In this document: positions 4,125-26,726 of the stretch, in pieces
Layout: each line of letters opens with the position of its first letter
How positions within the stretch are numbered: position 1 is the stretch's first letter
NCBI GenBank assembly: GCA_018652265.1
Contig: JABICL010000031.1
Location: 1 to 32,901 of the forward strand
Source: Candidatus Peribacteria bacterium
GTDB taxonomy: Bacteria > Patescibacteriota > Gracilibacteria > Peribacterales > Peribacteraceae
DNA length: 32,901 bases
Reading direction: 5' to 3'
Made by a program: the position numbers and the translations under genes
The notes under the pieces: generated by a model
Told to the model about the DNA's origin: nothing
Databases searched by the model: none
Seen by the model: only the letters and a program-made list of their open reading frames with translations

Positions 4125-4841
4125 ATGAACGAGCGACAGGCGAAGCTACTGGCAGCGATTATTGACGAATTCATTCAAACCGGTCTTCCGGTAGGTTCTA
4201 AATCTATAATCGACAGAAAGAAGTTTGATATATCAGGTGCAACTATAAGGAATGAAATGCACATCTTAAGCGAGGAGGGATTTATAGAACAACCTCATAT
4301 ATCCGCAGGTAGAATCCCCACTGCGATGGGATACAGGATGTATGTAAAAGATTTTATGAAACCAACTAAACAGGAAGCACTTGTAAAAGAAAGATTTGAA
4401 TCACTTAAAAATCAATATCTTAATCGCAAAGACCAAGAGCGTGCATATGAAGCTGTAGCATTACTTTCTCGTATAATGCCAAATATAAGCTTTGCAACTA
4501 TTCCGCATAGAAACAGAGTCTACTATATGGGTCTTGCAAATGTTCTTAGACAACCTGAATTTCAACAGGATGCATTACTTGCAAGTAATGTAGTAGAAGT
4601 TTTAGAAGAAGGTCTTACAGATCTTTTGGGATCTGTAGAAGTAGAAATAGATGAAAAAATCAGATATTACATTGGCGAAGAACATATTCTTCATACATTA
4701 CAAAGTTGTGCATTACTTGTAACCAAATACACAATAAGAGGAGAAGATGGAGTTATAGGAATACTTGGACCTATAAGAATGGATTATGCGTATAATACTG
4801 TTGCACTCGAGCTTGCTTCCGATTTACTTAACAAGTGCTAA
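4125..4841 (+). CDS. hrcA: Heat-inducible transcription repressor HrcA, short form
   Basis: The N-terminal 75 residues match the HrcA winged helix: MNERQAKLLAAIIDEFIQTG, PVGSKSI, SGATIRNEMHILSEEGFIEQPHISAGRIPTAMGYRMYV. The C-terminus VIGILGPIRMDYAYNT is the conserved HrcA end. At 238 residues it is roughly 100 shorter than typical HrcA, mostly in the central inserted dimerisation region. HrcA normally binds CIRCE inverted repeats and represses groEL and dnaK operons, with GroEL controlling its activity. No CIRCE and no chaperone gene is near. It is followed after 12 bp by the VirD4-like gene. Start ATG is fixed by homology and the nearby -10. Confidence 0.93.
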   Translation: MNERQAKLLAAIIDEFIQTGLPVGSKSIIDRKKFDISGATIRNEMHILSEEGFIEQPHISAGRIPTAMGYRMYVKDFMKPTKQEALVKERFESLKNQYLNRKDQERAYEAVALLSRIMPNISFATIPHRNRVYYMGLANVLRQPEFQQDALLASNVVEVLEEGLTDLLGSVEVEIDEKIRYYIGEEHILHTLQSCALLVTKYTIRGEDGVIGILGPIRMDYAYNTVALELASDLLNKC

Positions 4842-23950: not shown

Positions 23951-24832
23951 TCAGACCATTTCTTGCATAAATCCCCCCACATCCCCCTTCTCCACCTCTT
24001 CCACTAAACTACTCTTTTTACCATCTCTAGACTTAAGCCTTCCTACAAAAGATGGTCTAGGATCTTTTGCATGGTACAGAACTCCTGTAGCAATTTTTTC
24101 AGAAGTATCTATCGCAGTTCTTCTTGCATTTTCAAAATCAGAAGCATCGTAGTCTGAACCAACCGCATAACAATGTTCACGCAAAAATTCTGCAGTCATA
24201 AACTTGTTATATGTAGGACAAGATTGCAGCACGTCTATATAAGCAAAGCCATCATGCTGAATCCCCTCTTTTATTATTTCTGTAAGCTGTTTTATATCAC
24301 ATGATGTTCCGCGAGCAACAAAAGTAGGACTCAAGCTAAACACCAAATCCATTGGACTAAGTGTAGCTTCTGGAATTCCATTTGGAGATGAGTTCATAGG
24401 AGTATCTTGTCTAGTTACTGCAGATGCCTGACCAGTTGTAAGTCCGTAGTTTTCATTGTTATGAAGAAGACAAACTATTGGATAGTTACTACGCACAGAG
24501 TGTACTAAGTGATTCATCCCCTCACTGAAAGTTGCTCCATCTCCTGCAAATGCAATCGTATTTACTTTTGGATTTGCAATCTTTGCTCCAGCTGCAAATG
24601 GAAGTACTCGACCATGTAATCCATGGAATCTATAACATCCACCAACCTTGTCCGACATATTCCCATGACAACCAATATCGAAACACATAAGCACTTCACT
24701 AGGATCTAGCTCGAGCTCAGCACATGCTCTCTTTACCGCAGTCCATATTCCATAATCACCACACCCATCACACCAGGTACATGGGTTTGGGGATGAATAC
24801 TTGGCCATTGATTTGTAGTTATCCTGTGTCAT
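23951..24832 (-). CDS. 2-oxoacid:acceptor oxidoreductase, beta subunit
   Basis: The thiamine-diphosphate subunit of a 2-oxoacid:ferredoxin oxidoreductase (pyruvate or 2-oxoglutarate type). A [4Fe-4S] cluster site is formed by Cys18, Cys21 and Cys24 in CTWCDGCGDYG with a fourth at about Cys205 (QSCPTYNKF). The TPP-Mg motif runs from GDG at 97-99 to NNENYG at 125-130. FDIGCHGNMSDKVGG and FHGLHGRVLPFA are conserved in KorB/PorB. It lies 37 bp after the fused gamma/alpha gene on the same strand and forms an operon with it and with flavodoxin. Substrate (2-oxoglutarate, pyruvate or another keto acid) is not fixed by sequence. 293 residues. Confidence 0.93.
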   Translation of the reverse strand: MTQDNYKSMAKYSSPNPCTWCDGCGDYGIWTAVKRACAELELDPSEVLMCFDIGCHGNMSDKVGGCYRFHGLHGRVLPFAAGAKIANPKVNTIAFAGDGATFSEGMNHLVHSVRSNYPIVCLLHNNENYGLTTGQASAVTRQDTPMNSSPNGIPEATLSPMDLVFSLSPTFVARGTSCDIKQLTEIIKEGIQHDGFAYIDVLQSCPTYNKFMTAEFLREHCYAVGSDYDASDFENARRTAIDTSEKIATGVLYHAKDPRPSFVGRLKSRDGKKSSLVEEVEKGDVGGFMQEMV

Positions 24833-24835
24833 CTA

Positions 24836-24895
24836 ATTGAAAATTTAAAATTGGTAATTGAAAATTGTTTTAAAATTTATAATTTAAAATTCTCT
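24836..24895. repeat. AATTGAAAATT/TTTAAAATT low-complexity repeat
   Basis: Repeated AATTGAAAATT and AATTTAAAATT words fill the beta/gamma-alpha gap and run into the last codons of the upstream gene (RILNYKF end). Same style as the repeats at 14763 and 20917. Confidence 0.6.
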
Positions 24896-26726
24896 CAAGT
24901 ATCTCTTCGTAAAAGAATGGCCTCCCATCATACTTAAGAATTTTATCCTCTATAGAGAGTCCTGTTTCTTGTTTTATAAGCATACCAAGCTGCGACTGAT
25001 TATTACCTTCTACTATCACTACTTTTTTTGCCTTAGAAGAAAGTTCCAATAATTTCTCTGTCTTTAGTGGCCACAAATGTGAGTAATGCAAATATCCAAT
25101 TTTGCTTTCCTCGAGTGAGGATCCTCGCGAGGATCCGAGTCGAGAGGCAACCTCTCCACTCGTGCTCTGGCGCTCGGTCGAGGAAAGCTTGTTGCTCTGT
25201 CTAGAAAGATCTCTCAATACATCTACAAGAACATTCTTCGTACTACCCCAGCCAATAATCAAAATATCTAATTCTTCATTGCGGTCCGCGGACCGCGGTT
25301 CGCGGTTTGCTCCGTACAATTCCGGCTCCGGCAACGAATCTTTCAATGCCTTCATTTTCCTCATCCTCTTGTCAAACATTTCTTTTGCAGGAACGGAATC
25401 TTCTGTAATCGTTCCATCTGGAAGATTTTCATAAGAAGTTGCATTGTATCCAGGTGCAGCTTGTCCCGGTACCCATCTAGGAGATACGCCATCATCTGTA
25501 ATCATAAATCTGTCTTCAGCTTTCATTTCTGATAGATCTCTTTCATCTACAAGTTGTCCTCTGTCTATCTCGTAACTCTTCTGATCAAATTTCTCCGAAG
25601 TAAATAAGCTCTCTGCAGTATGTTTATCTGTAAGAAGAATGACTGGTATTTGGAATCTTTCTGCAATGTTGTGAGCTTCTGCAGTTAATTTAAATCCGTC
25701 TTCTGCATCACTTACAGACATAACACATCTAGGAAATTCTCCGTGCCCACTGTGTACAGCGAGTAGCAGATCACCTTGAGCAGTCCATGTAGGCATACCA
25801 GTAGCTGGGCCTGGCCTTTGAGCAAGCACAAACACCATAGGACTCTCTATGATTCCAACCATAGACAAAGTTTCTGTCATCAGATCAAATCCTCCGCCGG
25901 AAGTTCCTGTCATGGCTCTTGTTCCCATAAAATAAGATGCCGAAGCCATTTGAGAAGCTGTAATTTCATCTTCTGCCTGCTTGATCACCATCCCAGTCTT
26001 ATTCTGAATTTCTGCGAGATAAGTAAGTATGCTGCTCGCTGGAGTCATAGGATAACTTGCAAACATTCTCACCCCAGCATGAACTGCTCCAAGTCCTATT
26101 GCCTGATTTCCTGTAATTAGCATCGCATCACTACAATCTTTATTTGCATCTGGAAGTTTAATTTCTATTTCTTCTTCTGACTTAAATTCATATCCCTTAT
26201 CTATGCAATTCATGTTTAGATCTATAAGTTTTGGCTTGGATGCAAATCTTTCTTTTACAACTTCTTTGAGTTTGGATACATCCTGATTAAACGCAGACCA
26301 AAGAAGTCCCGTGAACAAAACATTTTGCACAACATAAGGAGCATTTAACTCTTTTATTATTTCATCTGTAGGAAGCAATATTACTTTTATATTTTTTGCT
26401 TCTATCTTCTTCTTTTCCTCTTCGCCAAAATCCCATTCCGACATATCGTGAATTAGATACCCACCATCATTTATTTCATCTAAATGAATACTAAGTCCAT
26501 GATGATCTAGGCTAACTACTGCATCTACTATTTTTTTTGAGCTTGTTATTTTGTGACTCGCAATATCTAGCTGATAACTTGCATGCCCTCCTTTTATAAG
26601 AGAGGGATACTCGCGATATCCAAATACGAAGTATCCAGATCTCTTGAGAGCTTTAGCTAGAATCTCTCCTATAGAGTTTATCCCCTGTCCAGAGGCGCCT
26701 ACGATTTTTACTGATACACGACTCAT
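24870..26726 (-). CDS. 2-oxoacid:acceptor oxidoreductase, fused gamma/alpha subunit, with in-frame palindromic inserts
   Basis: Residues 1-185 are the gamma domain (VKIVGASGQGINSIGEILAKAL, REYPSLIKGGHASYQLDI). From about residue 203 the alpha subunit begins (LITGNQAIGLGAVHAGVRMFASYPMTPASS, DEITASQMASASYFMGTRAMTGTSGGGFDLM, LAQRPGPATGMPTWTAQGDLLLAVHSGHGEF). The C-terminal domain has the GWGST and VIVEGNNQSQLG motifs. Two GC-rich palindromes sit in the reading frame around residues 472-482 (25281-25312) and 513-541 (25104-25188), adding low-complexity Ser, Arg and Glu residues between strands. The start ATG overlaps the flavodoxin stop by 4 nt (ATGA), so translation is coupled. The family's substrates are pyruvate, 2-oxoglutarate and related acids. 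618 residues. Confidence 0.92.
   Translation of the reverse strand: MSRVSVKIVGASGQGINSIGEILAKALKRSGYFVFGYREYPSLIKGGHASYQLDIASHKITSSKKIVDAVVSLDHHGLSIHLDEINDGGYLIHDMSEWDFGEEEKKKIEAKNIKVILLPTDEIIKELNAPYVVQNVLFTGLLWSAFNQDVSKLKEVVKERFASKPKLIDLNMNCIDKGYEFKSEEEIEIKLPDANKDCSDAMLITGNQAIGLGAVHAGVRMFASYPMTPASSILTYLAEIQNKTGMVIKQAEDEITASQMASASYFMGTRAMTGTSGGGFDLMTETLSMVGIIESPMVFVLAQRPGPATGMPTWTAQGDLLLAVHSGHGEFPRCVMSVSDAEDGFKLTAEAHNIAERFQIPVILLTDKHTAESLFTSEKFDQKSYEIDRGQLVDERDLSEMKAEDRFMITDDGVSPRWVPGQAAPGYNATSYENLPDGTITEDSVPAKEMFDKRMRKMKALKDSLPEPELYGANREPRSADRNEELDILIIGWGSTKNVLVDVLRDLSRQSNKLSSTERQSTSGEVASRLGSSRGSSLEESKIGYLHYSHLWPLKTEKLLELSSKAKKVVIVEGNNQSQLGMLIKQETGLSIEDKILKYDGRPFFYEEILERILNYKF
25104..25188. 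repeat. Palindromic element in frame inside the oxidoreductase gene
   Basis: Terminal inverted repeats GCTTTCCTCGA (25104-25114) and TCGAGGAAAGC (25178-25188) bound 85 bp of nested palindromes: perfect GGATCCTCGCGAGGATCC (25119-25136), GAGAGG-CAA-CCTCTC (25142-25156), and CGAGTG/CACTCG (25112-25117 and 25157-25162). GC content contrasts with the gene. It is translated as a Ser/Arg-rich insert. Confidence 0.8.
25281..25312. repeat. Second in-frame palindrome in the oxidoreductase gene
   Basis: GCGGTCCGCGGACCGC (25281-25296) is a perfect 16-bp palindrome followed by GGTTCGCGGTTTGC. It is read through as ANREPRSADRN, a charged linker before the GWGST domain. Confidence 0.7.

Follow-up and report, generated by a model that had tools for sequence, protein, structure and literature searches.

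The 85-nt palindrome that lies within the alpha subunit gene of a 2-oxoacid:ferredoxin oxidoreductase, in the 32,901-nt stretch of DNA analysed here (the window), is very probably a member of a non-autonomous palindromic repeat family, restricted to its lineage, which has spread as DNA and whose genic copies are tolerated in frame. The repeat is dispersed through the genome, its fold is retained by compensatory changes, and copies are inserted in the interior of genes at points where the homologues have nothing, with the reading frames left open.

The palindrome in the oxidoreductase gene

The element, its parts and the two genes concerned are located in the window as follows:

24870-26726, minus strand: host gene, 2-oxoacid:ferredoxin oxidoreductase alpha subunit, an ORF of 618 aa with POR_N and POR matches
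23951-24832, minus strand: adjoining beta subunit gene, with TPP_enzyme_C and PFO_beta_C matches
25104-25188, plus strand: whole family-1 palindromic element, with copies in its own genome, a fold z of -5.5 and Rfam matches at chance level only
25104-25114, plus strand: left arm of the outer stem (stem A), exact 11-bp inverted repeat with 25178-25188
25119-25136, plus strand: inner hairpin 1, with variable arms that covary among copies
25137-25161, plus strand: inner hairpin 2 (stems B and C), near-invariant GAGAGG/CCTCTC
25162-25173, plus strand: inner hairpin 3, variable arms
25178-25188, plus strand: right arm of the outer stem (stem D), exact 11-bp inverted repeat with 25104-25114

The coordinates and the 11-bp inverted ends given in a preliminary description of this DNA proved exact, with perfect arms, which form the outer portion of a 16-nt pair of 88% complementarity. 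The GC-rich nested palindromes that it claimed are also present, as an 11-bp outer stem enclosing three inner hairpins. We observed that the plus strand of the element folds with -50.2 kcal/mol (z of -5.5; none of 200 shuffles was equally stable) and that both strands fold strongly into this arrangement, with z about -5.5. When the element was compared with the Rfam models, the best match was FTX_2 with 14.9 bits against a gathering threshold of 48, which is chance level, and no fitting family was found.

The element is read through on the minus strand, where it encodes residues 513-541 of the alpha subunit without breaking the frame, as had been described. Homologues of this subunit were found in 30 of the 40 genomes searched, and the insert is absent from all 27 relatives that were aligned, so that none has the same residues encoded by unrelated DNA. 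A single-sequence structure model of the subunit (mean pLDDT 34.7) was unusable for placing the insert; its probable position in a loop is taken only from alignments to solved homologues. The insert would be transcribed and translated, and would add a loop of about 26-31 residues to a working enzyme.

Other repeats were also seen in this subunit. Two relatives (L052 and L069) carry short GTCCGAA-like tandem repeats in the same linker as the palindrome, as if this linker could tolerate repeat-derived sequence repeatedly. Another linker is encoded in part by a GC-rich, GCGGACC-like stretch of tandem or palindromic character at 25281-25305 of the window; a similar tandem is found in carA, where it differs between contigs C14 and C20. 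Homologues of the alpha subunit in members of the class contain in-frame TGA; together with the genome size, this suggests that the host is a Patescibacterium near Gracilibacteria or Peribacteria.

Ten interrupted proteins were aligned with solved structures. In all ten cases the best match breaks off at the element and picks up again behind it. The excess over the solved homologue (query minus chain, worked out from the alignment ranges) was between 23 and 39 residues, KsgA and the symporter having the least clean gaps:

KsgA: 23 residues
Thioredoxin reductase: 26 residues
ProC: 28 residues
LeuRS: 30 residues
CarA: 27 residues
Symporter: 39 residues
Oxidoreductase alpha subunit: 29 residues
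Transketolase: 27 residues
Dihydroorotase: 30 residues
MurE-like protein: 31 residues

Copies, fold and reading frame

A lack of any other copy would have spoken against the preliminary description; in fact copies are counted by dozens in the own genome, a draft of 1,069,784 bases in 48 contigs. A blastn search with the element gave 70 matches, and a covariance model built from 18 copies (R1) gave 106, counted on both strands; this search scored 150 of 342 first-look candidates, which makes the copy number a minimum. We counted 60 places with the exact half-pattern CTCGAG-N12-40-TCGAGAGG and none with the reversed control pattern. Altogether 63 places with the element, permuted or half forms were classified, 60 at first and three added from the half-pattern search; one of the first 60, at C30:31720-31809 (L095:2221-2310), is a different palindrome with ends GTGTCAT...ATGACAC, a second kind of repeat.

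In family 1 (84-116 nt) the order is stem A, hairpin 1, stem B, loop, stem C, hairpin 3 and stem D, and A pairs with D and B with C in a four-way fold. In family 2 (about 80 nt) the same blocks are permuted, the A-hairpin-B unit being nested between C and D. Single halves are present too. Family-1 copies have a mean GC content of 0.61, compared with 0.38 in the window as a whole.

Among 18 aligned family-1 copies, 96.2% of the cells pair, and two-sided changes affect 48 cells against 14.7 in shuffles; among 28 distinct 33-nt hairpins drawn from the 60 half-pattern matches, 98% of arm positions are paired against 82% with the arms reshuffled, these shuffle statistics overstating significance somewhat because the copies are related by descent. 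Fold strength is about equal in genic and intergenic copies. Copies in the opposite orientation to the gene use all three phases, and the family-1 copies in the same orientation (4/4) use the sole phase that avoids a conserved TGA. Since the arms vary in step and all three reading frames are used, it is the fold that is conserved and not a peptide, and the element is accepted at any site where its DNA can be read.

We defined an interior copy as one with at least 30 residues before the element and at least 25 after it. Within ORFs of at least 200 aa lie 29 of the 60 places first classified; 27 of the 60 are interior, as is one of the three added (in a glucan-phosphorylase-like ORF, named by eye), which gives 28 interior copies in 25 genes. 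Here both carA copies are credited to one gene, and two copies each fall in pyrC and in a FemAB-like gene; the dnaK leader at C1:63089 and an ORF start at C30:66268 were left out. All 28 are stop-free and frame-preserving, and they occur in both orientations relative to the gene.

The interrupted genes include leuS, ksgA, transketolase, trxB, proC, carA, pyrC, uvrD and gatA. By Pfam, the hosts comprise LeuRS, an SDF symporter, three glycosyltransferases, transketolase, RrnaAD (KsgA), TsaE, Mur ligases, an IleRS-like anticodon domain, a ComEC-type competence protein, the CPSase small chain, carbamoyltransferase, P5CR, 6PGD, UvrD, amidase and a pyridine nucleotide-disulphide oxidoreductase, which is thioredoxin reductase by its solved homologue. 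In the three glycosyltransferases (L014, L015) the element lies at about the same place, between two domains.

Non-interior copies lie outside genes or at ORF starts. The 31 of 60 places outside ORFs of 200 aa or more are flanked by ORFs on at least one side, and no broken gene was seen at any of them. When both same-strand neighbours were named by Pfam they belonged to different families, except for two CAP-domain paralogues; a split gene is possible at some intergenic sites, because some neighbours have no Pfam match.

The two carA regions, on contigs C14 and C20 (L033, L099), are about 91% identical; they come from a duplication that has since diverged or from two strains in a single bin. 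Looking for an empty site in this pair, we found an identical 80-nt family-2 element on both contigs. The element is identical and its near flanks are about 93% identical, which indicates that the insertion predates the split of the two sequences.

Distribution, spread and alternative explanations

The repeat appears to be lineage-restricted, being nearly absent from relatives. Neither the 56 relatives from the family nor the 287 from the class, sets without members of the same genus, yielded a full copy. When 59 relatives were searched at E 0.01, only G029 and G002 matched besides the own genome, both weakly. The covariance model gave, in 57 family genomes including the own one, one other weak match, which is a different palindrome, and in 288 class genomes including the own one, a 38-base piece in G002 and three pieces of 35-37 bases in G171, a member of another family of the class, where they belong to a repeat with other ends. 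By eye, the weak matches in G029, G002 and G025 are chance or other palindromes and were rejected as copies. The repeats of G171 (L135, L137 and L138) have TGTCAT/ATGACA ends and contain a piece like the C-hairpin-D half of the element. A scan of public genomes for the half-pattern, from which records of the own genome were possibly left out, gave one match, on a Prevotella contig, which by eye is unrelated; it gave none in Rickettsia, which speaks against near identity only. A literature search with the repeat sequence found nothing.

Regarding the mode of spread, Y1_Tnp has no match in the own genome (the control was found in 5 of 14 genomes), and no RVT_1 or DDE_Tnp_1 gene was found there. 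Around 31 family-1 copies, the number of matching flank bases was 0 in 14, 1 in 11, 2 in 5 and 3 in 1. A MITE of a DDE transposon is not supported, there being no consistent target site duplication, nor is a REP/RAYT or IS200/IS605-mobilised repeat, the Y1 transposase being absent. As no regular target duplication and no gene of these three families is seen, movement is deduced from copy number alone and the copying route is a proposal only: the element might be copied through a folded single strand or a cruciform, by an enzyme encoded elsewhere or lost, or else by template switching at replication, which could also swap and repair hairpin arms. These are the steps with the least support. Genic copies would persist only where the frame is kept, no stop falls in frame and the loop is tolerant, and other genic insertions would be purged.

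Two copies occupy a particular position. Exactly two CIRCE-like operators match the exact pattern in the own genome, ahead of dnaK and groES, and in both cases a family-1 element of like orientation lies 6 nt past the operator, ahead of the start codon:

L009:2060-2203 (C1:63060): CIRCE and element leader
L011:10119-10276 (C38:47120): CIRCE and element leader

The repressor expected to bind CIRCE is HrcA, and the ORF at 4125-4841 of the window, judged by eye, is presumably HrcA. In relatives with a clear dnaK start (at least five cases), only about 15-24 nt separate it from CIRCE.

A broader proposal can be made, of an active mobile element in which selection acts on a four-way DNA or RNA junction with exchangeable hairpin arms. 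It would have entered some 25 conserved genes without regard to frame, would have been co-opted in both CIRCE heat-shock leaders at the same position, and would be copied by a new mobilising enzyme or a replication-based route, in a streamlined, probably episymbiotic host. We regard this combination as doubtful. The same leaders, together with the covarying arms and the neighbours of the 28 intergenic copies scored on both sides (19 tandem, 8 convergent and 1 divergent), would also suit a module under selection for some function (as mRNA stabiliser, terminator or leader structure, for instance) rather than selfish DNA, with the genic copies as by-products. This seems improbable given that unrelated coding sequences contain 28 copies, in either orientation, that at least five dnaK genes of relatives have a short leader after CIRCE and that relatives nearly lack the family.

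The strong fold of both strands might suggest that the inserts stay untranslated, being cut from the RNA or skipped by the ribosome as reported for palindromic elements in mitochondrial genes of Magnusiomyces, a precedent mentioned in PMC6649704. However, all interior copies are open and frame-preserving, for which the chance would be about 10^-15 for 27 of 27 copies if the frame were irrelevant (a figure conditional on how copies were picked and treating them as without shared descent). The restriction of the same-orientation family-1 copies to the TGA-avoiding phase and the lack of an Rfam intron match over 25104-25188 also argue against it, and we consider it very improbable. An artefact of assembly or binning, or an ordinary coding linker of low complexity, is hardly credible in spite of the 48-contig draft and the two carA versions, since the copies differ in sequence and sit in unrelated genes on many contigs, and the half-pattern survey (60 places against 0) already contradicts it.

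Relation to known palindromic repeats

The Rickettsia palindromic elements (RPE) of Ogata et al. are presented, in PMC10969869 and PMC2229807, as dispersed palindromes of roughly 100 nt, found between genes and in frame in conserved genes, each encoding a conserved peptide according to the review, with target duplication not established. The repeat tolerated in frame that we favour here is likewise a palindrome with terminal inverted repeats forming a long stem-loop; it has many in-frame copies in conserved genes (28 in 25 genes) and others between genes, and target duplication is likewise not established. In contrast, its host lineage apparently belongs to another phylum, its sequence is probably different, it measures 84-116 nt in one family and about 80 nt in the other, with a four-way fold and shared blocks in permuted order, and it encodes no conserved peptide, three phases and both orientations being used. 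The likeness to the Rickettsia elements put forward in the preliminary description thus concerns behaviour, the repeat being palindromic, dispersed and in frame within many conserved genes; it apparently does not extend to descent, given the apparently different phylum, the sequence, the four-way fold and the lack of a conserved peptide. The element would represent a new family, separate from RPE and behaving like them, the comparison with RPE being one by description.

In Wolbachia, protein-coding palindromic repeats were reportedly described by Ogata et al. in 2005; likened by description and not by sequence, they too are coding palindromes outside Rickettsia, in another lineage. REP palindromes are linked to RAYT, and these repeats and MITEs are also small, non-autonomous palindromes in many copies, whereas here there is no Y1_Tnp gene, no regular target duplication and many interior copies. 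In Nematomorpha mitochondria, palindromes also coexist with coding sequence; PMC6649704 describes them as long perfect inverted repeats, actively maintained, and not as a dispersed family with shared sequence.

Protein-coding palindromes have been presented as a peculiarity of Rickettsia, then of Wolbachia, and no report of them in the candidate phyla radiation was found in the open-access literature. A separate family that uses all frames, in a small-genome bacterium of an apparently different phylum, would show that this habit arises independently. Its mode of movement, without the three common mobilising enzymes or a regular target duplication, becomes a testable question. In addition, the copies amount to a natural insertion scan of LeuRS, KsgA, transketolase, CarA and other conserved proteins, indicating which sites can accommodate about 30 additional residues.
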